Source: Geodermatophilus sp. DSM 45219 (GTDB taxonomy: Bacteria > Actinomycetota > Actinomycetes > Mycobacteriales > Geodermatophilaceae). Taken from it: a DNA stretch of 64,000 nucleotides. The stretch covers positions 62,001 to 126,000 of the forward strand of contig NZ_FNIQ01000008.1 in assembly GCF_900104025.1 (NCBI RefSeq), given 5' to 3'. Positions 3,648 through 14,075 of the stretch are shown here, in pieces. Positions within the stretch are counted from its first letter, which is position 1; each line of letters starts with the position of its first letter. A model generated the notes under the pieces. It had not been told where the DNA came from. It ran no database searches and saw nothing but the letters and a program-made list of their open reading frames with translations. Position numbers and translations under genes: made by a program.

Positions 3648-4579
3648 TCATGGTCGTCCGCAGGAGTCCGCAGATGACAACGCAACCTTCTGACCTGCGC
3701 AAATGAACTCTGGCGTACCGCCCTGGACCCCACTCAGCCGCCCTGGCAGTGTGGGGGTCAGGGGTTCGAGTCCCCTCGGTTCCACCCGATGACCAGGCCG
3801 TTCTCCCTCTGCAGAGCGGCCTGAGTCATCCCTGGTCGTAGTCCGCCCACCCTCACCCGGCAGCAGCAGGCCGCCCATCCGGTCGGCGGCCTCGCGGGCC
3901 AGGGCCGGCATGACGTGGCTGTAGACGTCCATCGTCGTGCGCATCCGGCTGTGGCCGAGCAGCTCCATGACGACGCGCGGGCGGACGTTCTCGCCCAGCA
4001 GCAACGTGGCGGCGCTGTGCCGGCCGTCGTGCAGGCGGACGTGCCGGACGCCGGGGCACCGGAGCAGACGGGCCCAGTCGTCGTGGTCGGGCTTCCTGTC
4101 GACCGGCCGGCCGTTGGGCCGGGCGAAGGCCAGGTCCTCGTCCTGCCACTCGCAGCCGGCCAGCATCCGCTCCCCGAGCTGCGCGGCCTTCGGGCTCTTG
4201 CCCGCGCCGGGCAGGCCGGTCACGAGCAGCCGGGTGCGTCGGCGGGCCACGGCCGTCGGGGACACCGGGTCCTCGTCGTTGCCGGGGACGGTGACGCGCA
4301 GCTGTTCGGCGAGGTCGTCGACGACGAGGGGCTGGAGGTCCTCGTCGAGCACGGTGAGGTCCACCCGACCGGGCTCGGCCGCCAGCGCCGACCGGTACTG
4401 CTCCACGGCGGCTGTCCGGGCGCGGACGGCCGCCGCGGCCGGGCCGGCGCAGTCGGCGTACACCGGGACACCGCGGTCGACGAGCTCGCGCACCCAGGGG
4501 TCGACGTCACCGCCGTAGGCGTGTGGAACTGCCGCTCGAGGTGGGACAGGGCGGTCGCACCTTCTTCCGCCGGCACCAC
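3648..4579 (-). pseudogene. Frameshifted chimera: P-loop ATPase N-terminal part joined to tyrosine-recombinase (integrase) C-terminal domain
   Basis: Reading from ATG 4579 gives MVPAEEGATALSHLERQFHT. The frame then appears to shift near 4520 into a second frame that stays open to 3648. That frame carries a Walker A motif (LLVTGLPGAGKS, near 4200) as in NACHT-like or AAA proteins. It then passes directly into the C-terminal half of a phage-type integrase: a box with the catalytic Arg (HDGRHSAATLLL), the LLGHS box and the nucleophile Tyr (TTMDVYSHV). The first integrase catalytic Arg and the arm-binding domain are missing. The reading frame runs through the tRNA-like attachment fragment. It cannot be a complete recombinase; it looks like the fused remains of two element genes. 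Confidence 0.6.
3752..3786 (+). other. tRNA 3'-end fragment, probable attachment (att) site
   Basis: The stretch holds a perfect T-arm (AGGGG, loop TTCGAGT, CCCCT, 3760-3776) followed by an acceptor-like 3' strand CGGTTCCA (3777-3784). No D arm, anticodon arm or matching 5' acceptor strand (GGAACCG) lies upstream, so this is only the 3' end of a tRNA gene. Integrating elements commonly duplicate exactly this part of a tRNA, and it lies within the 3' end of a recombinase remnant. The identity of the donor tRNA cannot be given from 35 bases. Confidence 0.65.
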
Positions 4580-4710
4580 CGTTCCCTAGAGCAGGCTGGC
4601 GGCGACGTCGTGCCGGGGGCCTCCGTCGGCCGTCGTCAGTCCGGCGTCCGCGAGGCCGTTCCGCTCCACGGCCAGCACGAGTGCGGGGGACGGGTCGCTG
4701 ACCCGCTGCC

Positions 4711-5337
4711 TCAGGTCCGCCGGAGCGCCGCGACCTGCTCGGGCGTCAGCGGCCGCGTCCGCCGCCCGTGCAGCAGCAGGTGGATGCGGGCGGTCTCCTC
4801 GAGCTCCTCGACGGCATCGGCGGCCGACGCGAGGTCGGCGGCGGAGACGACAGGCCCGTGGTTGGCCAGCAGCATGGCGTGCGACGTGCGGGCCGTCCGT
4901 TCCGCCAGCTCCGCGAGCGAGCGGTCGCCCGGAGCGTGGTACGGCAACAGCGGCAGCCGCCCCACCCGCATGACGTAGTAGGCCGTCAGGGCCGGCAGCA
5001 CGTCGCGCGGGTCCAGGTCGGCCAGGCAGGACACCGCAGCCGCGTGGGTGCTGTGCGTGTGCACCACCGCGGCGTCCTGCGGCCGGGCCCGGTAGACGGC
5101 TGCGTGCAGGAACGCCTCCTTGGAGGGCCGTGGCCCGTCGAGGTGGCACCCCTGCAGGTCGACGAGGCTGAGCTGGTCGGTCGACAGCTGCCCGAGGTTC
5201 GACCCGGTCGGGGTCACCAGGAAGCCGCCGGGTACGCGCACGCTCAGGTTCCCCGTACGACCGGCGGTCAGGCCGCGGGCGAACAGCGACGCACCCAGCG
5301 CGACCACCTGCCCGCGCAGCTCCGGATGGTCCGCCAC
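4711..5337 (-). CDS. Class II aldolase/adducin-family protein, OtnC-like (3-oxo-tetronate-4-phosphate decarboxylase candidate)
   Basis: 208 residues, the usual length of bacterial class II aldolases. Zinc ligands are visible as H93 and H95 (VVHTHSTHA) and H160 (LLANHGPVV), with the catalytic acid E74 in PSKEAFLHAAVY. The phosphate-binding GNLS motif (residues 29-32) and TPTGSNLGQL are present. In known pathways the OtnC branch of this family decarboxylates 3-oxo-tetronate 4-phosphate made by a DUF1537 kinase, and such a kinase is encoded 3.4 kb away on the other strand. GTG 5337 starts four bases after the GntR stop, so it is in the regulator's operon. Fuculose- or ribulose-phosphate aldolase activity is an alternative. 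Confidence 0.75.
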   Translation of the reverse strand: MADHPELRGQVVALGASLFARGLTAGRTGNLSVRVPGGFLVTPTGSNLGQLSTDQLSLVDLQGCHLDGPRPSKEAFLHAAVYRARPQDAAVVHTHSTHAAAVSCLADLDPRDVLPALTAYYVMRVGRLPLLPYHAPGDRSLAELAERTARTSHAMLLANHGPVVSAADLASAADAVEELEETARIHLLLHGRRTRPLTPEQVAALRRT

Positions 5338-5341
5338 GTGC

Positions 5342-6229
5342 TCACCCCTCGTCTGCTCGGGGCTGCGGTGACCGCGTACCGAGCAGCAGGGCCAGCTCCT
5401 GGACCAGTTCGCGCACCCGTCCGAGTTCCTCGCCCCCGCCCGCTCCGGGCGGACGGGGCCCGACGTGCGCGTCCACGTCGAACACGGTGTCCGGCCGGTG
5501 CCAGGCGGTGAACCACTCGAGCCCGCGCCCGTACTGGTCCCGGGTCACCCCCTGCAGGAGGAGGACCGGCACGCCGACGCCCAGGTCCAGGTGGGTGGCC
5601 ACGGCCTCGTCCGCGGGCACCGCCTGCAGCTGACGCGGTCCGCCCTGCGGCTCCACACCCCGGGCCCGCATCCAGTCGTGCAGGGAGCCGCCGTCGAGGT
5701 CCTCGGCCGACAGGTGCGGGAAGAGCTCCCTCGGCAACCACGTGCGCATGAACACCAGCGGCTCGTCCTCCACCCGCCGGATCCGCTCGAGGCGCCAGGT
5801 GTCGGTCACCCCGAGCGCGACGGCCGCGGCGGACGGAGCTTCGTCGACCGCCAGCCCGACGATCTCGGTGCGCAACTGGTGGCCACTGGCCTCCACCTGC
5901 TGGCGGAGGCCCCCGGCCTGGTCGGCGCGCCGCCGGTGCTCGGCGCGTGGTGCGACGACGCTGCCGCGGCCGCGCTGACGGACGATCAGTCCGAGGTCGG
6001 CGAGGTCGCCCAGCGCCTGCCGGACCACGCTCCGCGAGACGCCGTAGCGCGCCTGCAGCGCCTCCTCGGTCGGCAGCGGGGCTCCGGGCGGCAGGGAGTG
6101 GCTGTCGATCTGGTGCCGGAGCGCGTCGCGGATCTGCGCGTACAAGGGCACACCGGCGGTGCGGCCGAGCTCCGGCGGCGGCGGGACGTCGTCCGTGACC
6201 TCGGACGCCATGGACCCCTCGACGGACAT
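5342..6229 (-). CDS. GntR/HutC-family transcriptional regulator
   Basis: 295 residues from ATG 6229, chosen because GGAGGAGGG lies just upstream and the winged helix then begins near residue 25. The N-terminal GntR domain reads PLYAQIRDALRHQID, LPTEEALQARYGVSRSVVRQAL (recognition helix) and GSVV (wing tip), with an unusually good consensus. A UTRA-type sensor domain follows (about residues 100-250) with EDEPLVFMRTWLP and a C-terminal RDQYGRGLEWFTAWHRPD, the HutC-subfamily hallmark. It likely binds a phosphorylated or free acid sugar. It is divergent from kdgT, with palindromes in between that are probable operators, and heads a two-gene unit with the class II aldolase. Confidence 0.85.
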   Translation of the reverse strand: MSVEGSMASEVTDDVPPPPELGRTAGVPLYAQIRDALRHQIDSHSLPPGAPLPTEEALQARYGVSRSVVRQALGDLADLGLIVRQRGRGSVVAPRAEHRRRADQAGGLRQQVEASGHQLRTEIVGLAVDEAPSAAAVALGVTDTWRLERIRRVEDEPLVFMRTWLPRELFPHLSAEDLDGGSLHDWMRARGVEPQGGPRQLQAVPADEAVATHLDLGVGVPVLLLQGVTRDQYGRGLEWFTAWHRPDTVFDVDAHVGPRPPGAGGGEELGRVRELVQELALLLGTRSPQPRADEG

Positions 6230-6309
6230 CCCGCCCTCCTCCCGTTGAGCGCCGCGGCGACGCACCGGCGCCGTCCCTCCCAGCATCGTGCCCTGTCCGG
6301 CACAGGGGG

Positions 6310-6371
6310 TTGACGGCGTGGCGCACGTCACCTTACCTTCGTACGGATAAATTGTACGGACACATTGTCCG
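6310..6371 (+). promoter_or_regulatory. Promoter of the permease/RuBisCO-like operon with two candidate GntR operators
   Basis: TTGACG (6310-6315) and TTACCT (6333-6338) are spaced by 17 bases. Directly downstream, over the expected transcription start, lies an inverted repeat CGTAC-N9-GTACG (6340-6358). A second palindrome, CGGACACATTGTCCG (6357-6371), abuts it. Their position at +1 fits repression by the divergent GntR/HutC protein. The promoter assignment is by eye. Confidence 0.6.
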
Positions 6372-6388
6372 GACCCATGGAGGTCACC

Positions 6389-7411
6389 GTGAGCGATGTC
6401 CTGCGGACGAGCCCGTCCACGTTCCCCATGTTCGAGGCGATGCGGCGGGTCCCGGGCGGCCTGATGCTCATCCCGCTGACGCTCGGCGTTCTCATGAACA
6501 CCTTCGCGCCGGACGCACTCGGGATCGGGGGCTTCACCACCGCCCTGTTCAAGGAGGGCGCCCTCGCCCTCATCGCCCTGCTGGTCCTGGCCACCGGGGC
6601 GTCCATCACCGGCACGCACAACGGCAAGGGCGCCGCCGGGACGACGCTGGTCGTCCTCCTCGCCAAGACCCTCATCCCCATCACGCTGTGCGTGGTCCTC
6701 GGACTCACGGTCGGCGTCGACGGGATCCTCGGCGTCTCGATCCTCGGGCTGATCGCCATCTTCGGGAACAGCAACGGCGCCATGTGGCTCGCCTTCGCCG
6801 GCGAGTACGGGGACGAACGGGACCGCGGCGCCTACGTCGCCAGCGCCTTCGACGACGGCCCCTTCCTCGCGCTGGTGTTCCTGGGCGCCTCGGGCCTGGC
6901 CGACATCCCCCTCCTGGCGCTGGTCGCCGCGCTGGTGCCCTTCCTCATCGGCCTGTTCATCGGCGCGGTGGACCGCGAGTGGACCAAGGTCCTGGACGCC
7001 GTGCCGAACGTCGTCATCCCGTTCATGTCCTTCGCGGTGGGTACCGGCATCGACCTGCGGACCGTCCTCACCGGGGGTGCCGCCGGCGCCGTCCTGGGTG
7101 TCGGCGTCGTCGTCCTCACCGGCGGGCTCACCTACCTCGGCTACCGGTTCCTGCTCCGCCGGGGCCGCGAGAGCGGCATCGGCTTCGCGGCCGGCACCAC
7201 CGCCGGCAACGCGGTGGCCGTTCCCGCCGCCGTCGCCGCCGCGGACCCGAACTTCGCGCCCTTCGTCGCCTCCGCGTCCGCCCAGGCCGCCACGGCCGTC
7301 CTCGTCACGGCCCTGCTGGCCCCCACCGTCGCGGCCTGGGTCATGAAGCGGGCGGGAGCCCTCGAGCCCGTCCCCCTGCCCGTGGTCCCGCCGAAACCCC
7401 ACCACGCGTGA
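6389..7411 (+). CDS. 2-keto-3-deoxygluconate permease-like transporter (KdgT family)
   Basis: 340 residues from GTG 6389, preferred because GGAGG (6379-6383) lies five bases before it; an in-frame ATG at 6377 is possible. About ten membrane segments in the KdgT pattern: RVPGGLMLIPLTLGVLMNTF at the start, a central IFGNSNGAMWLAFAGEYGDERDRGA loop with conserved charged residues, and a second-half GTTAGNAVAVPAAVAAADP motif. KdgT proteins import 2-keto-3-deoxygluconate or related acid sugars with protons. As the first gene of the operon it probably brings in the substrate that the following kinase and RuBisCO-like protein use. Confidence 0.85.
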   Translation: MSDVLRTSPSTFPMFEAMRRVPGGLMLIPLTLGVLMNTFAPDALGIGGFTTALFKEGALALIALLVLATGASITGTHNGKGAAGTTLVVLLAKTLIPITLCVVLGLTVGVDGILGVSILGLIAIFGNSNGAMWLAFAGEYGDERDRGAYVASAFDDGPFLALVFLGASGLADIPLLALVAALVPFLIGLFIGAVDREWTKVLDAVPNVVIPFMSFAVGTGIDLRTVLTGGAAGAVLGVGVVVLTGGLTYLGYRFLLRRGRESGIGFAAGTTAGNAVAVPAAVAAADPNFAPFVASASAQAATAVLVTALLAPTVAAWVMKRAGALEPVPLPVVPPKPHHA

Positions 7412-7449
7412 CCGCGCCATCCCACCCGCACCGATCGGAGGACCCCGAC

Positions 7450-8712
7450 ATGCGCGACCCCCGCCGTATCCGCTGCACCTACTACATCGAGGCCGTCGAC
7501 GTCGCACGGGCCGCGGCCGCTCTCGCCGGCGAGCAGTCCAGCGGGACCTTCATCGCCGTCCCCGGAGAGTCCGACCGGATCCGCGAGCGCCATGCGGCCC
7601 AGGTCGTGGAGATCCGCGAGCTCGGCGAGTGCCCGCCCTCCCTGCCGTCGAGGCGCCGGCCGGAGCGGGTGACCGCGGCCGAGGTCGTCGTCGAGTTCCC
7701 GATGGAGAACACCGGTACCGACATCGCGACCCTGCTCACCGCGGTCGCCGGCAACCTCTTCGAGCTCGTCGACCTGTACGCCTGCCGGCTGCAGTCGATC
7801 GAGCTGCCCGACGAGTTCGTCGCGGCCCACCCCGGCCCCGCCTTCGGCGTGGCTGGCACCCGCAAGCTCATGGGCGTGCCGGACGGCGTGCTGATCGGCA
7901 CGATCGTCAAGCCGAACGTCGGCCTGGTGGAGGACGAGTTCCGCGGCGTGGTGCGCGAACTGGCCCGCGCCTCGATCGACCTGGTCAAGGACGACGAGCT
8001 GATGACCGATCCGGCGTACCTCCCCCTGGAGACCCGCGTCCGCGTCGCGCTGGAGGAGATCCGCGACGCCGAGCAGGTCACCGGGCACCGGACGATGTAC
8101 GCCTTCAACATCACCGGGGACCTCGCCGGCCTCCAGCGCCGCCACGACCTGGTGGTCGAGGCGGGCGGGAACTGCGTGATGCTCAACGTCCCGGTCATGG
8201 GCCTGCCGGCGCTCGCGTGGCTGCGCGGGTTCGCCCAGGTGCCGGTCCACGGCCACCGGGCCGGACTGGCCGCCTCGATGCGCTCTCCCGCCCTGGGGGT
8301 GGACTTCACGGTCTGGCAGCAGCTGGCCCGCCTGGCCGGCGCCGACCACGTCCACGCCAGCGGGCTGGGCAGCAAGTTCTACGAGCGGGACGAGCAGGTC
8401 GCGGCGAACATCCGCAGCCTGCAGGCGCCGCTGGGGACCACGATCGCCCCGCTGCCGACGCTGTCGTCCGGGCAGAACGTGCACACGCCGGGTCCGACGT
8501 TCGCGGCGGTGGGGTCGACCGACCTGCTCATGCTGGCCGGCGGTGGGATCGCCGCCCACCCGGACGGGCCGGCCGCCGGTGTCCGCAGCCTGCGCCAGGC
8601 GTGGACCGCGGCGGTGGGTGGGAACCCGTTGGCGGACGCGGCCGCGGCGCACGCGGCCCGTGGTGACTCCGCCCTCGCACACGCGCTGCAGACGTTCCCG
8701 GCAGGTGCCTGA
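7450..8712 (+). CDS. RuBisCO-like protein (form IV large-subunit homologue)
   Basis: 420 residues. RuBisCO landmarks can be matched by spacing: K154 in GTIVKPNVGL (RuBisCO K175), K180-DDE (K201 carbamate lysine with D203/E204), H269-R270 in VHGHRAG (H294/R295), and H302 with K309 seven residues on (H327/K334). The metal and carbamate site is therefore intact, but the second lysine of KPK is Asn and the CO2-fixation loop is diverged, so it is not a carboxylase. RuBisCO-like proteins coded with DUF1537 kinases act on 3-oxo-isoapionate 4-phosphate as decarboxylase or transcarboxylase/hydrolase in D-apiose pathways. ATG 7450 follows a GGAGG-type site, 38 bases after kdgT, and the stop overlaps the kinase start by one base. 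Confidence 0.85.
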   Translation: MRDPRRIRCTYYIEAVDVARAAAALAGEQSSGTFIAVPGESDRIRERHAAQVVEIRELGECPPSLPSRRRPERVTAAEVVVEFPMENTGTDIATLLTAVAGNLFELVDLYACRLQSIELPDEFVAAHPGPAFGVAGTRKLMGVPDGVLIGTIVKPNVGLVEDEFRGVVRELARASIDLVKDDELMTDPAYLPLETRVRVALEEIRDAEQVTGHRTMYAFNITGDLAGLQRRHDLVVEAGGNCVMLNVPVMGLPALAWLRGFAQVPVHGHRAGLAASMRSPALGVDFTVWQQLARLAGADHVHASGLGSKFYERDEQVAANIRSLQAPLGTTIAPLPTLSSGQNVHTPGPTFAAVGSTDLLMLAGGGIAAHPDGPAAGVRSLRQAWTAAVGGNPLADAAAAHAARGDSALAHALQTFPAGA

Positions 8713-9998
8713 TGGCCCGCTTCGGGTTCCTCGCCGACGACCTGACGGGCGCCAGCGACGTCCTCGCGCAGGCGCACGCCCACGGGCTCGACGCCGTGCT
8801 GGTCCTCGACCCCGGACGGTCGGTGCCGGACGACGCCGACGTCGTGGGCATCGCCGGACCGGCCCGCTCGCTGGCCGGCGACGCACTCGACGAGGCGGTG
8901 CGGTCCGGTCTCGCCCCGCTGGCGTCCCTGGACCTGTCCGTGCTGCTCTACAAGGTCTGCTCCACGTTCGACTCCTCGCCCACCGTCGGCAGCATCGGGC
9001 GGGGCATCGAGCTCCTGCACGAGCGGTTCCCCGGGCACGGACCGGTGCCCGTCGTCCCCGCGCAGCCCGGCTTCGGTCGCTACACCGCCTTCAGCCAGCA
9101 CTTCGGCGTCCACGCGGGGGAGGTGTACCGGCTGGACCGGCACCCGGTGATGGCACGTCACCCGTCCACGCCGATGCACGAGGCCGACCTGCGGCTGGTC
9201 CTGGCCGGACAGCTCACGAGCGGGCGCCCCGTCCCGGGCCTGCACCTGCCGGCCCATGCCGACGGCACCTTCGACGACCGGTGGGCGCAACTGCGCGAGG
9301 CGGCGGACGCCGAGGCCTTCGTCGTGGACGCCGTCGACGAGGCGCAGATGGACACCGTCGCCGAGGCCCTGCTCCGGGACCCTCGTCCCGCCGGACCGGC
9401 GCTCGTCGTCGGTTCCGGGGGCATCATGGCCGCGCTGGCCCGCCTCCGTGGCGGTGCCCCCCGCAGGCCGCCGGCTCCCACCGCCTCCCGTGGCCCGACG
9501 CTCGTCGTGTCGGCCTCGGCCTCCACCACGACCGCCGGCCAGATCGACGACGCCGTCCGGCACGGCTGGGTCGACGTCCCGATCCCGGCCGGGGACTTCG
9601 CCGGCGACGTCACACGGAGGCCGTGGTCGGCCGCCGTCGAGGCGGCCCTCCGGGCCGGCCGGGACGTCGTCGCTCACACCACGCAGGGACCGGACGACCC
9701 CCGGCTGAGCGCCGGCTCTGCCACCGCCGCCGCGGTGGGCGGCACCATCGGCCGGCTCGCCGGCGACCTGGCCCGCCGGGGACTGACCCGGGACGTCGTC
9801 GTCTGCGGCGGCGACACCTCCAGCCACGCCCTGCTGGCCATGGGCGTCAGCGAGCTGCGGGTCACCGAGCAGTTCGTCACCGCCGGACCCATCTGCACCA
9901 CCGATGACGCGGCCACCGTCGCCGGCTGCCGCGTCCTGCTCAAGGGCGGCCAGGTCGGCCCCCCCGACCTGTTCCGCCGCTTCGCCGGCCTCGTCTGA
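8712..9998 (+). CDS. DUF1537 four-carbon acid sugar kinase (OtnK/OiaK type)
   Basis: 428 residues, typical of the family. The N-terminal substrate domain opens with GFLADDLTGASDVL, the DDxxGA signature. The C-terminal nucleotide-binding domain holds GSGGIMAAL near residue 235 and VVVCGGDTSSHALLAMGVSEL near 360, the family's ATP-binding Gly-Gly-Asp-Thr motif. Members phosphorylate the 4-OH of 3-oxo or 2-oxo four- and five-carbon acid sugars. Translation is coupled to the RuBisCO-like gene (TGATG). The product would be an oxo-acid phosphate, the expected substrate of either the RuBisCO-like protein or the class II aldolase in this cluster. Confidence 0.85.
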   Translation: MARFGFLADDLTGASDVLAQAHAHGLDAVLVLDPGRSVPDDADVVGIAGPARSLAGDALDEAVRSGLAPLASLDLSVLLYKVCSTFDSSPTVGSIGRGIELLHERFPGHGPVPVVPAQPGFGRYTAFSQHFGVHAGEVYRLDRHPVMARHPSTPMHEADLRLVLAGQLTSGRPVPGLHLPAHADGTFDDRWAQLREAADAEAFVVDAVDEAQMDTVAEALLRDPRPAGPALVVGSGGIMAALARLRGGAPRRPPAPTASRGPTLVVSASASTTTAGQIDDAVRHGWVDVPIPAGDFAGDVTRRPWSAAVEAALRAGRDVVAHTTQGPDDPRLSAGSATAAAVGGTIGRLAGDLARRGLTRDVVVCGGDTSSHALLAMGVSELRVTEQFVTAGPICTTDDAATVAGCRVLLKGGQVGPPDLFRRFAGLV

Positions 9999-10037
9999 GC
10001 CGCGCGGGACACCCCACCGATCGACCAGGAGGACACC

Positions 10038-11087
10038 ATGAAGGCCGTCGTCAAGCACGCAGCCGAGCGCGGCATCCAGGTCCGCGAGGACTGGGCCGAG
10101 CCCGTCGCCGGCCCGGGGCAGGTGCTGCTCGAGGTGGCCGCCGCCTCGCTGTGCGGCACCGACCGGGAGCTCTACGAGTGGACGCCCTCGGCGCAGGCGT
10201 TCGACCTCACCCCGCCGGTGGTCCTCGGCCACGAGGGCTCCGGCACGGTGCTCGCCGTGGGCGCGGGCGTCGAGAACGTGGCCCCCGGCGACCGGGTGGC
10301 GCTGGAGAGCCACCTCATCTGCGGCCGCTGCTACCCGTGCCGGACCGGCAGCGCGCACACCTGCGAGCGGACCGGCATCCTCGGCATGCACATCGACGGC
10401 GTCTTTGCCGAACGAGTCGCCGTCCCGGCGGACATCTGCGTGCCGCTGCCCGGATCGGTGTCGCTCGAGACCGGTGCCCTGCTGGAGTCGGCCGGGGTGG
10501 CCATGCACGCCGTCCAGCGGTCCGGGTACGCCGTGGCCGGGCAGTACGTCCTTGTCAACGGCTGCGGGCCCGTGGGTCTGGTCATCGCGCAGATCGCCCT
10601 CGCCCTGGGAGCGGCGGCCGTCGTCGCCGTGGAACCCAACCCGTTCCGCCGGAAGCAGGCGGAGTCGATCGGCGCCCGGGTGCTCGACCCGTCGGACGAC
10701 GTCGTCGGCGTGTGCCGCGACCTGGCCGGCCCGCGCGGCGGCTTCGACGTCGCCTTCGAGGTCTCCGGCGTGCGCGGAGTGCTGCCGCCGCTGCTGGCGG
10801 CGCTGCGGCGGGAGGCCACGCTCGTGACGGTCGGACACCCGAGCGAGCCGGCCGCGATCGACGTCGCGGCGTTCGTGAACAAGAAGGGCATCACCCTCCG
10901 CGGCATCTTCGGCCGCCGGCTCTGGGACACCTGGGAGCAGTTGCTTCTCCTGCTGCAGTCCGGTCGCATCGACCTGGACTGGCTGATCACCCACCGCCTG
11001 TCCCTCGACGAGGCAGAGGCCGCGGTCGAACTGCTCACCGGCGATGCCGGGAAGGTGCTGCTCGTCCCCGGCGCGAACCGACGGTGA
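10038..11087 (+). CDS. Zinc-dependent medium-chain alcohol/polyol dehydrogenase
   Basis: 349 residues. Catalytic zinc ligands C39 (SLCGTDRE) and H65-E66 (LGHEGSG), structural zinc cysteines C95, C98, C101 and C109, and an NAD(H) motif VNGCGPVGL at about 174-181. It resembles threonine 3-dehydrogenase and L-threonate or sorbitol-type dehydrogenases. A good AGGAGG site precedes ATG 10038, 39 bases after the kinase gene. In this cluster it most likely oxidises a hydroxyl of the incoming acid sugar to the 3-oxo compound used by the kinase; that is inference from order and family. A strong hairpin follows it. Confidence 0.85.
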   Translation: MKAVVKHAAERGIQVREDWAEPVAGPGQVLLEVAAASLCGTDRELYEWTPSAQAFDLTPPVVLGHEGSGTVLAVGAGVENVAPGDRVALESHLICGRCYPCRTGSAHTCERTGILGMHIDGVFAERVAVPADICVPLPGSVSLETGALLESAGVAMHAVQRSGYAVAGQYVLVNGCGPVGLVIAQIALALGAAAVVAVEPNPFRRKQAESIGARVLDPSDDVVGVCRDLAGPRGGFDVAFEVSGVRGVLPPLLAALRREATLVTVGHPSEPAAIDVAAFVNKKGITLRGIFGRRLWDTWEQLLLLLQSGRIDLDWLITHRLSLDEAEAAVELLTGDAGKVLLVPGANRR

Positions 11088-11093
11088 TCCGGC

Positions 11094-11126
11094 GGGGTCG
11101 GGCCGGTACCCCGCCGGCCCGACCCC
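11094..11126 (+). terminator. Intrinsic-type hairpin after the dehydrogenase gene
   Basis: Perfect 13-bp stem GGGGTCGGGCCGG / CCGGCCCGACCCC around a 7-base loop, starting seven bases after the stop codon. There is no U-tract, as is common in high-GC actinobacteria. It separates the catabolic operon from the MFS gene. The remaining 236 bases to the next start show no feature I can support. Confidence 0.7.
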
Positions 11127-11362
11127 GTCCGCGCTGACGCACCGGCTCGTGGTGGTCGCAGTTCCGCTGTGGCGCACCGGGCCGCGGTCGCCGGCTCCGC
11201 CTGCCCTCGGTGCCCGGCCCGGGCCGGAGCGGCGCTGGTCGACCGGACCTCCTCGCCGTCCAGCGCGTCGCCGTGCAGGGTGCAGGCGTCCACGGGCGGA
11301 GCGGGAGCCGAGGTGGTGGACTCGGCCCGTCGGACGGCCGGTGCAGCTGCGGAGGTGGTGTC

Positions 11363-12556
11363 GTGCAGGTGCGGCCACGCGTGCTCGTCCTGCTCGTGGC
11401 GCTCGCCTCCGCCGTCGCCCAGGCCTTCGGTCGCTTCTCGTACGCGTTGCTGCTCCCGGCGATCAACCGCGACCTGCTGGGCTCGTACGCCGTCGCGGGG
11501 CTGGTCGCCACGGCCAACGTCACCGCGTACCTGCTCGGGACCCTGGCCGTGAGCACCCTCTCCCGCCGCGCTCGGCCGGCCGCGCTCATCCAGGCCGGCC
11601 TGGCCTGCAGCGCGCTCGGCCTCGCGCTGCTCACCCGGGCCGACGGTGCGGGGCAGCTGTCCGTCGGACTCACCCTGACCGGCATCGGCGGCGCCTTCAT
11701 CTGGGTGCCGGCTCCCGGGCTCGCCGGCTCGGTCGTCCGCCCGTCGCGCCGCGGGGCCGCGATCGGCGTCGCGGGCTCCGGGATCGGCGCAGGGATCGTG
11801 TTCGCCAGCGCCCTGACCTGGGGTCTGCAGGCCCAGGGCGGTGATGCCTCCTGGCGCACGGTCTACCTGGTCGAGACGGCGATCGCGCTGGTCGCGCTCG
11901 TCCTGCTCCTGCTCCTGCTCCGGCCCGCGCCGCACCGCGACGACGACGCGCCCGTGCGCGCCGCCGCCCTGCGACGGGTCCCCGGCTGGATCGGTCTGAC
12001 GAGCGGCTACGCGGCTTACGGCTTGGCCTACTCCGTCTACACCAGCTACCTGGTGACCGCGCTCGAGGACGACGCCGGCTTCTCGGCCGGCCACGCCTCG
12101 GCGGTCTACACCCTGGTCGGCATCGGCCTGACCGTCGGCGGCGTCCTGCTGGGACCGCTGTCCGACCGGTGGGGTCGCGGCGCCACGCTGGTCGGCGGCT
12201 ACCTGGCCATGGCAGGGGCGATCCTGCTCGTGCCGCTGGGCCTGGAACCCCTGGCCTCGGTGTCGGCCCTGCTGTTCGGCCTGATGATGTCCGGGCTGCC
12301 GGCGGTCATCGCCGCCCACCTGTCGGACTTCCTGACCCCGCGGGAGTTCGCCGGGGCCTTCGGTCGCTGCACCCTGGCCTTCGGGCTCGCGCAGCTGTGC
12401 GGTCCTCCGCTCGGTGGCTTCCTCGCCGAGACGACGGGCGGCTTCCTCGTCCCCTTCCTCCTCGCCGGACTCGTCGCGGCGATCGGCGCCGGCGTCAGCC
12501 TCGACGTCCTCCGCGCCACGTCCACCCGCCGCCAGCCGAACGGCGTCCGCTCCTGA
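11363..12556 (+). CDS. MFS transporter (YbfB/YjiJ-like)
   Basis: 397 residues with about twelve membrane segments. The start is GTG 11363, six bases after GGAGGT (11351-11356); an in-frame open extension upstream has no membrane character. The first helix carries the FGRFSYALLLPAI pattern characteristic of the YbfB/YjiJ branch of major facilitators. The middle loop DRWGRG near residue 255 is the family's motif-A equivalent. The substrate is not known. It lies downstream of the acid-sugar cluster but behind a terminator-like hairpin, so its link to that pathway is only positional. Confidence 0.75.
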   Translation: MQVRPRVLVLLVALASAVAQAFGRFSYALLLPAINRDLLGSYAVAGLVATANVTAYLLGTLAVSTLSRRARPAALIQAGLACSALGLALLTRADGAGQLSVGLTLTGIGGAFIWVPAPGLAGSVVRPSRRGAAIGVAGSGIGAGIVFASALTWGLQAQGGDASWRTVYLVETAIALVALVLLLLLLRPAPHRDDDAPVRAAALRRVPGWIGLTSGYAAYGLAYSVYTSYLVTALEDDAGFSAGHASAVYTLVGIGLTVGGVLLGPLSDRWGRGATLVGGYLAMAGAILLVPLGLEPLASVSALLFGLMMSGLPAVIAAHLSDFLTPREFAGAFGRCTLAFGLAQLCGPPLGGFLAETTGGFLVPFLLAGLVAAIGAGVSLDVLRATSTRRQPNGVRS

Positions 12557-13094: not shown

Positions 13095-14075
13095 GTGGAC
13101 GGCATCGCGACCCTGAGTGCGTTCGTCGGGCGCTGGTTCGCGCTCATCGTCGTCGTGGCCGGCGGCATCGCACTCGCGACCCCGGACACCTTCGCCGGGG
13201 GCGGCGCGCTGGTGCCGTACCTGCTGATGGTGATCATGCTCGGCATGGGCATGACCCTGCGGGCGACCGACTTCGCGATCGTGGCGCGGCGGCCCTGGGC
13301 GCTCCTGCTCGGCGTCGCGGCGCAGTACGTCGTGATGCCCGGGGTGGCGTGGCTGCTGACCCAGGCGCTCAGCCTCCCGGCCGCCGTCGCCGCCGGGGTG
13401 ATCCTGGTCGGGGCCGCGCCCGGCGGGACGGCGTCCAACGTGATGGTCTACCTGGCCAAGGGCGACACGGCCCTGTCCGTCGCGATGACGTCGGTGTCGA
13501 CCCTGCTCGCGCCCCTGCTGACCCCGCTGCTGGTGCTGTGGCTGGCGGGGGAGTACCTGCCCGTGGACGCCGGGGGCCTGTTCACCTCGATCGTGCAGAT
13601 CGTCCTGGTGCCGGTGCTGCTCGGGCTGGTCCTGCGGCTCGTCGTCCCGCGGGTGGTCGAGCGGGTCCTGCCGGCCCTGCCGCTGGTCTCGGTCGTCGGC
13701 ATCACCGCGGTCGTGGTCGTCGTCGTGGCCGGCAGCGCGGACACGATCACGTCGGTCGGGCTCGTGGTCGTGCTCGCGGTGGTCCTGCACAACGGCCTCG
13801 GCCTGGCCCTCGGGTACGGCATCGCCCGTGTCACGGGCATGGACGTCTCGGCCCGGCGGGCCATCAGCATCGAGGTCGGCATGCAGAACTCGGGGCTGGC
13901 CGCGGGGCTCGCCACGGTGCACTTCAGCCCCGCGGCCGCGCTGCCGGCGGCGGTCTTCTCGGTCTGGCACAACGTGTCCGGGTCCCTGCTGGCCGGCCAC
14001 TGGGCGCGCAGGGACCCCGCCGCCGGCCGGGTCGACGGCCGGGACGGGGTGCTGGTGCGGGAGACGGAGCGGTGA
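13095..14075 (+). CDS. Bile acid:sodium symporter (SBF/BASS) family transporter
   Basis: 326 residues, about ten membrane segments. BASS features: a first-half GMGMTLRATDF, a central GAAPGGTASNVMVYLAKGD (the crossing-region sodium-site motif) and a second-half EVGMQNSGLAAGLA. These align with the two inverted five-helix repeats of the family. Bacterial members carry pantoate, organic acids or other anions with sodium; the substrate is unknown here. GTG 13095 was taken because the first helix follows within 15 residues. The gene stands alone between divergent and convergent small genes. Confidence 0.85.
   Translation: MDGIATLSAFVGRWFALIVVVAGGIALATPDTFAGGGALVPYLLMVIMLGMGMTLRATDFAIVARRPWALLLGVAAQYVVMPGVAWLLTQALSLPAAVAAGVILVGAAPGGTASNVMVYLAKGDTALSVAMTSVSTLLAPLLTPLLVLWLAGEYLPVDAGGLFTSIVQIVLVPVLLGLVLRLVVPRVVERVLPALPLVSVVGITAVVVVVVAGSADTITSVGLVVVLAVVLHNGLGLALGYGIARVTGMDVSARRAISIEVGMQNSGLAAGLATVHFSPAAALPAAVFSVWHNVSGSLLAGHWARRDPAAGRVDGRDGVLVRETER

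Follow-up and report, generated by a model that had tools for sequence, protein, structure and literature searches.

RuBisCO-like proteins (RLPs) that act on acid sugars or branched sugars belong to the closest described systems for the locus considered here, a small catabolic gene cassette in a stretch of 64,000 nucleotides (hereafter, the window) from Geodermatophilus sp. DSM 45219 (contig NZ_FNIQ01000008.1, positions 62,001 to 126,000). D-apiose catabolism, reportedly described by Carter et al. in 2018, is said to use OiaK together with RLPs that are either decarboxylases (OiaX) or transcarboxylase/hydrolases; the latter convert 3-oxo-isoapionate 4-phosphate to 3-phosphoglycerate and glycolate. 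Tetronate pathways that use OtnK and OtnC were reportedly described by Zhang et al. in 2016. In the published passages that we consulted, decarboxylation or transcarboxylation/hydrolysis of 3-oxo-isoapionate 4-phosphate is attributed to RLPs of A. radiobacter and X. autotrophicus (PMC6302742), an Ochrobactrum RLP of hamamelose assimilation is tied to 3-phosphoglycerate and glycolate, with Kim et al. 2018 being cited (PMC8914248), an actinobacterial RLP of unknown role is mentioned (PMC7325909), and general remarks or citations on RLPs are found (PMC6404388, PMC8920986, PMC10173188, PMC10176493). No description of the cassette was found in such passages of the open-access literature; Carter 2018, Zhang 2016 and Kim 2018 lay outside this scope, and absence from print is not claimed.

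We conclude that the cassette is a real and conserved variant of the known acid-sugar pathways that pair an RLP with a DUF1537 kinase, with an OtnC side branch that is peculiar to one family, and that it probably takes up a sugar acid and splits it via a cousin of RuBisCO, by a route unlike those worked out so far. As a more specific reading, held at slightly less than even confidence, we propose that an imported acid sugar is oxidized at C3 without skeletal rearrangement, phosphorylated, and then cleaved hydrolytically by the RLP, with all steps encoded by a dedicated mobile cassette.

Gene content and conservation of the cassette

An earlier note on this DNA had named a set of OtnC, GntR, KdgT, RLP, kinase and dehydrogenase genes, and all six are present where it had placed them. 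The features are as follows.

4711-5337, minus strand: OtnC-type class II aldolase (3-oxo-tetronate 4-phosphate decarboxylase family; NF043034, 271.6 bits, cut-off 250)
5342-6229, minus strand: GntR/UTRA regulator, presumed to be that of the cassette (PF00392 and PF07702)
6339-6363, no strand: presumed operator, palindrome TTGTACGTAnnAAAnGTACGTACAA (5 of 22 positions mismatched in the window)
6377-7411, plus strand: KdgT-family acid-sugar permease (PF03812, 338.2 bits, cut-off 25)
7450-8712, plus strand: RLP (PF00016, 187.9 bits, cut-off 30.1)
8712-9998, plus strand: DUF1537 (four-carbon acid sugar) kinase (PF07005 and PF17042)
10038-11087, plus strand: zinc-dependent medium-chain dehydrogenase/reductase resembling L-threonine 3-dehydrogenase (Tdh-like; PF08240/PF00107)
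4692-11132, no strand: block common to the Geodermatophilaceae copies, 93-96% DNA identity (blastn)
11363-12556: MFS gene, beyond the shared block
13095-14075: PanS-like gene, beyond the shared block

The OtnC and GntR genes are co-directional and 4 bases apart, the kinase start and the RLP stop overlap by one base, and the RLP most likely starts at the ATG at 7450. While the span given in the earlier note (4711-12556) includes the six cassette genes, it also takes in the MFS gene, which lies outside the block common to relatives (end at about 11124-11164) and was therefore rejected as a cassette member.

A contig scan for RLP relatives confirmed at least 531, and among the best 80 of these, which were kept, 12 loci have an RLP identity to the window of at least 67% and no other locus exceeds 52%. 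The clade as used here comprises 18 distinct loci including the window, assembled from scan loci, a Rhodococcus sp. DMU1 plasmid, two copies in genome G024, and genomes G468 and G052; these loci span nine named actinobacterial genera, and the named hosts include strains of Arthrobacter, Pseudarthrobacter, Rhodococcus and Kitasatospora. For comparison, 82 other RLP loci, many of them short, were used; L016, which is on the same contig as L096, was dropped throughout, and L099-L101 and L110-L113 (distant RLPs and RuBisCO) were excluded from the co-occurrence count. Gene calls in the relatives' loci were made with a codon-score script and many gene names there were assigned by eye. A careful tree of 46 RLP rows (12 from the clade), built without long-branch outgroups to replace a quick tree that had contained them, gave the clade a support of 100/100 and a stem of 0.7 changes per site, with a sister group consisting of Streptomyces, Kribbella, Microbacterium and one further actinomycete. 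The RLP is rare; counting the host's own genome, it was found in 4 of 112 genomes of the family Geodermatophilaceae (E ≤1e-100) and in 2 of 394 genomes sampled from the class (E ≤1e-150, four candidates scored per genome).

The co-occurrence search suggested in the earlier note showed that the GntR, KdgT, RLP, kinase and dehydrogenase genes are found together in 18/18 clade loci; as the five genes recur together in all 17 loci other than the window, their grouping is not due to chance. The GntR relatives in these loci show 47-95% identity. The earlier note was also right that KdgT takes the place of an ABC or TRAP transporter, and a KdgT-family gene indeed marks the clade, being present in 17/17 other clade loci versus 0/82 other RLP loci; two subtypes occur, with 63-99% or 34-40% identity to the permease of the window. 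A Tdh-like dehydrogenase lies within 5 kb of the RLP in 17/17 other clade loci, and within the same distance 12 of the 82 other RLP loci have a zinc dehydrogenase and 77 a DUF1537 kinase. KdgT, kinase or dehydrogenase matches are split in two at four places (L022 9567-9941, L017 11268-12550, L020 6508-7541, and L027 8912-9945), which appear to be pseudogenes or sequencing errors. An all-against-all comparison of frames from 16 clade loci, in which families present in at least three loci were considered, yielded no conserved flanking families other than shadow frames of the cassette, frames confined to the Geodermatophilaceae copies (one of which is integrase-like), a frame that follows KdgT in four loci of the Arthrobacter type and is about 120 residues long, and frames resembling short-chain dehydrogenases/reductases in three loci.

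A 25-base palindrome is located upstream of the cassette in 18/18 clade loci (0-7 mismatches in 22 positions) and its match beats 200 of 200 shuffles of the same intergenic DNA in each locus; the pattern was derived from these same loci, and the shuffles preserve single-base content only. In the host genome (4.97 Mb), a single site matches a variant of the pattern at up to two mismatches, as compared to none for the reversed control, and no further regulon members were found at this threshold. At up to three mismatches, the operator was found in 9 of 11 other genomes or records, at one place in eight of these (including Glutamicibacter, where the site counts on both strands) and at two places in Rhodococcus; the search, which did not cover L027, missed the more divergent sites of G047 and G050, and the reversed control matched once, in G047. 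At this threshold, none of these 11 genomes or records has operator sites beyond the cassette, the second Rhodococcus site also being upstream of a KdgT gene. Given a single operator-like site in the genome, the regulon probably consists of the cassette alone, which would mean that the RLP products, probably central metabolites, enter central metabolism without further dedicated enzymes. The GntR protein would control the cassette through the palindromic site. In Rhodococcus sp. DMU1, the second operator site precedes KdgT and then pyruvate kinase, and pyruvate kinase behind the operator favours 3-phosphoglycerate as a product. Separately, pyruvate kinase is also found near an RLP-kinase pair outside the clade, on a Bradyrhizobium elkanii plasmid (L147 14504-15919).

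Active site and family membership of the RLP

Curated profile models were used with cut-offs of 700 bits for OiaX (NF042437) and OiaK (NF042436), 350 bits for OtnK (NF043035), 250 bits for OtnC (NF043034), 453.8 bits for the 2-keto-3-deoxygluconate transporter proper (TIGR00793), and 458.35 bits for Tdh (TIGR00692). The window RLP scored 377.4 bits against the OiaX model, which is its best NCBIfam match, and four other clade RLPs scored 349-356 bits. The window kinase was below both relevant cut-offs (213.0 bits for OiaK and 127.9 bits for OtnK); OiaK scores were 192-213 bits for kinases of four clade members, 246-258 bits for two sisters, and 426-486 bits for seven others, and by these scores the kinase has diverged from OiaK in step with the RLP. 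The dehydrogenase, whose five best solved relatives are all named L-threonine 3-dehydrogenase, scored 266.5 bits against the Tdh model and is a relative, though not necessarily an orthologue, of Tdh, while the permease scored 178.1 bits against TIGR00793 and belongs to the PF03812 family. As all four scores are under the cut-offs, the four operon proteins are assigned, at the level of profile models, to known families but to no curated equivalog.

As in D-apiose catabolism, the RLP adjoins a DUF1537 kinase and a phosphorylated 3-oxo acid is expected as its substrate, whereas the cassette has a Tdh-like dehydrogenase and KdgT instead of ApsD-like and ApnO-like genes. A PGDH_C gene (PF16896), which is located two genes from an OiaX-annotated RLP in Rhizobium johnstonii and which we take to be ApnO, was found in 0/17 clade loci versus 36/82 other RLP loci; a gene that we counted as ApsD-like, and presume to be ApsD, was found in 0/17 versus 15/82. 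An ApnO-like homologue was absent from the genome of the window and, in total, from 11 of the 14 clade genomes or records searched, with unlinked homologues in two (41-42%) and a marginal match in one (E 7.6e-4). The absence of both genes makes the D-apionate route unlikely. The cassette may nevertheless represent the known D-apiose/apionate pathway with a replaced first part, such that the RLP substrate would still be 3-oxo-isoapionate 4-phosphate, made in another way. This idea fits with OiaX and OiaK being the best matches of the RLP and the kinase and with sister RLPs being located in loci with plant cell-wall enzymes; since both proteins have diverged and the ApnO-like and ApsD-like genes are missing to the extent described above, we consider it improbable.

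Residues were compared in an alignment to Cupriavidus Form I RuBisCO, with 15 clade rows to which L098, L144, and L145 were then added. All 18 clade RLPs keep twelve catalytic residues (E28, T33, N102, K154, K180, D182, E183, H269, R270, H302, K309, and S339), for which we assume the RuBisCO roles of the aligned positions; the residues K154, K180-DDE, H302, and K309, which the earlier note had pointed out, align with their RuBisCO counterparts as it stated. The same twelve are kept in 33/33 ApnO (PGDH_C)-linked rows, some of them from Xanthobacteraceae. By contrast, three rows annotated as OiaX show D, G, Q, and G/C at positions 28, 102, 302, and 339, where the clade has E, N, H, and S in 18/18 rows; together with the score of 377.4 of 700 bits, these differences led us to reject membership of the window RLP in OiaX. 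Five residues are almost unique to the clade, namely N156 (most others have S), P248, L273, A274, and N343, and position 273 is W in all 33 PGDH_C-linked rows. An AlphaFold2 model of the RLP (pLDDT 94.2) has the RuBisCO fold, which, along with PF00016, places the protein in the RuBisCO superfamily. The closest solved structure by both sequence and fold is the Burkholderia fungorum RLP 3nwr (template modelling [TM] score 0.91; function absent from the titles), which differs in having only 42% identity in the fold alignment; archaeal Form III RuBisCO reaches a TM score of up to 0.88.

Because the twelve catalytic residues are kept, the RLP may still be able to hydrate its substrate and break a C-C bond in it, the substrate being unlike that of the apiose enzymes, and the clade-confined residues together with a kinase far from OiaK point to such a changed substrate. 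The earlier note had reasoned that the pathway would already be described if the RLP fell in a characterised clade with the same neighbourhood. Among the sequences compared, which did not include the characterised transcarboxylase/hydrolase and hamamelose-pathway RLPs, this was not the case, as judged by the OiaX score and the missing ApnO-like gene.

The residue differences also bear on a simpler possibility, that the RLP, like OiaX, only decarboxylates, so that a phosphorylated 3-oxo acid would lose CO2 and become a ketose phosphate. A C5 acid would then yield erythrulose phosphate, and a C6 acid, for example 3-oxo-hamamelonate 5-phosphate, a pentulose phosphate. Decarboxylation of a 2-hydroxy-3-oxo acid is the simplest chemistry, OiaX is the best match, and a pentulose phosphate would likewise need no extra enzymes. 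However, the match amounts to only 377 of 700 bits, the three OiaX-annotated rows depart at four positions that the clade keeps, the flanks of the clade contain no conserved family (in at least three loci) for processing tetrulose phosphate, although no directed search for an isomerase was made, and the pyruvate kinase gene that one relative has behind the operator suggests a link to lower glycolysis. We thus judge plain decarboxylation to be unlikely, albeit with a chance large enough to weigh against the hydrolytic reading.

The OtnC branch and apparent mobility of the block

Unlike the four operon proteins, OtnC is above its equivalog cut-off, and it contains the motifs HTH (at 93) and ANHG (at 158), which presumably provide the His ligands of class II aldolases. 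The cassette resembles the tetronate OtnK/OtnC pathways in this respect and in having a DUF1537 kinase, but differs from them in the low OtnK score of that kinase and in the lack of OtnC in 13/18 clade loci. Specifically, OtnC is found in 5/5 Geodermatophilaceae copies and in 0/13 other clade loci (12-21 kb of DNA per locus); we thus regard the OtnC branch as accessory and excluded OtnC from the core of the cassette. The statement in the earlier note that both routes stand under one regulator accordingly holds for the Geodermatophilaceae copies and fails for the 13 other loci. Genome-wide, OtnC exceeds the cut-off in 3 of the 14 genomes or records searched, all Geodermatophilaceae, and Arthrobacter G047 has a 213.7-bit OtnC piece and a small second piece elsewhere. 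Among the 82 other RLP loci, two (L069 and L095) have OtnC matches of at least 150 bits.

The genome of the window contains one OtnC above the cut-off, the next OtnC-like match having 60.7 bits, and the single further DUF1537 kinase detected in this genome adjoins a PdxA-like gene, so that the partner of OtnC is likely the cassette kinase. This second kinase (L114 8921-11318, contig C8) follows a GntP-like transporter gene and is itself followed by the PdxA-like gene (by eye); its best model is D-threonate kinase (179 of 450 bits), and the locus looks like a separate D-threonate-type route. In Geodermatophilaceae, OtnC would allow the same dehydrogenase and kinase to serve four-carbon acids as well, decarboxylating their 3-oxo 4-phosphates to dihydroxyacetone phosphate as a second exit. 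Alternatively, OtnC could have no metabolic tie to the RLP route and be a passenger of a Geodermatophilaceae element, as its absence from 13/18 clade loci and the apparent mobility of the block might suggest; its presence in all five copies, co-directional with GntR and within a shared block that ends just outside OtnC, argues against a passenger, as does the finding that class II aldolases occur in 6/12 other RLP loci with a zinc dehydrogenase versus 6/70 without (a biased count, as some queries came from these loci), and we consider this alternative rather unlikely. Five Firmicutes RLP loci (L028, L029, L032, L034, and L052) carry a class II aldolase together with a zinc dehydrogenase of another kind; OtnC is the best model for the aldolases of L028 and L034 (115 and 134 bits, below 250).

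Between its copies (the window, G009, two in G024, and G468), the block is 93-96% identical, and only short pieces of the flanks can be aligned. It ends just past OtnC on one side and just past the dehydrogenase on the other, at positions that vary (4624-4703 and 11106-11164). The two whole-block copies of G024 (L097 7625-14032 and L098 7196-13602) are 99.2% alike and have different flanks. The cassette is thus apparently horizontally mobile. By eye, long frames near the G024 copies resemble conjugative relaxases, and a window frame at the OtnC end (3651-4745, minus strand), which has a 72% relative on a G009 contig, resembles the C-terminal part of a tyrosine recombinase and may be an integrase remnant.

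The proposed pathway and its possible substrate

In the reading that we favour, the KdgT permease would import the acid, the Tdh-like dehydrogenase would oxidize the C3 hydroxyl to give a 3-oxo acid directly, such that no oxidoisomerase of the ApnO type is needed, and the DUF1537 kinase would phosphorylate the terminal hydroxyl. The RLP would then cleave the 3-oxo acid phosphate hydrolytically, either at once or following an internal shift of the carboxyl group, as reported for the transcarboxylase/hydrolase RLP, yielding 3-phosphoglycerate and a small hydroxy acid, e.g., glycolate or glycerate. The flow from import through oxidation, phosphorylation, and cleavage that the earlier note had outlined fits the gene content. 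In Microbacterium halimionae (L065 12509-15295), an FAD-oxidase and an Fe-S protein (PF02913, PF01565, and PF13183) directly follow the RLP-linked kinase; this pair resembles glycolate or lactate oxidase, in line with a small hydroxy acid as a product.

A number of points weigh against this hydrolytic route. The chemistry is deduced from residues, gene content, and regulon, and hydrolysis specifically from the kept residues; while all twelve residues of the transcarboxylase/hydrolase test are kept, that set was taken as a family mark by assumption, with the characterised protein outside the comparison. Relative to Form I, the clade has F34 in place of W, N156 in place of K, and L273 in place of H, positions at which the ApnO-linked rows likewise depart, and the E to D change that the OiaX-annotated rows show at position 28 is a conservative one. 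Only 1/18 clade loci has pyruvate kinase next to the cassette, and glycerate kinases, of two types, are found within 10 kb in Rhodococcus and in Leucobacter (there with enolase), 1/18 each, which is suggestive only; searches of the 18 clade loci for glycerate kinase, pyruvate kinase, enolase, and a glycolate-oxidase-like protein found none beyond the source locus of each query. Finally, OtnC could be a passenger.

The same products could also arise if the RLP were an oxygenase that converts a keto-sugar phosphate and O2 to 3-phosphoglycerate and glycolate, as in the D-hamamelose pathway of Ochrobactrum anthropi. Most named hosts of the clade are soil aerobes, and the published RLP oxygenase of the hamamelose route is said to give these two products (PMC8914248). 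By description, as its sequences were outside our comparison, the hamamelose pathway is similar to the cassette in that an RLP acts late in a branched-sugar route with the products proposed here, but the 13 clade loci outside Geodermatophilaceae differ in having no separate decarboxylase. An oxygenase would require a prior decarboxylation or the like, for which these 13 loci have neither OtnC nor another conserved extra enzyme; OtnC could fill that place in the window, but is absent elsewhere. We therefore regard an oxygenase as quite improbable.

Within the hydrolytic route, one long-shot candidate for the substrate is a branched acid with six carbons, for example 2-carboxy-D-arabinitol (D-hamamelonate), the plant compound that underlies the night-time inhibitor of RuBisCO. 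Oxidation at C3 and phosphorylation at C5 would turn it into the six-carbon intermediate of RuBisCO minus the C1 phosphate, and the RLP would carry out hydration and C2-C3 cleavage to 3-phosphoglycerate and glycerate. If true, a RuBisCO relative would digest the skeleton of RuBisCO's own inhibitor, running only the second half-reaction.

Outside the clade, loci with an RLP, a DUF1537 kinase, and plant cell-wall genes but no ApnO-like gene were observed (L011, L033, L038, L044, L059, L065, L072, L073, L030, L041, and L149), with GH127 confirmed in L073 and other cell-wall enzymes annotated or named by eye; it is possible that these represent aceric acid or apiose routes from rhamnogalacturonan II. 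Two distant RLPs beside split transketolase-like genes (L112 and L113) probably belong to another pathway.

Few RLP reactions have been assigned, and they bear on the origin of the carboxylation and hydrolysis chemistry of RuBisCO. The varied front ends of RLP/DUF1537 pairs, including oxidoisomerase-like genes, zinc dehydrogenases, and cell-wall enzymes, provide a guide for assigning others. The clade described here combines most of the RuBisCO active site with a minimal three-enzyme set that follows a common operator, and it occurs in named strains; its substrate could thus be identified with a small assay panel.

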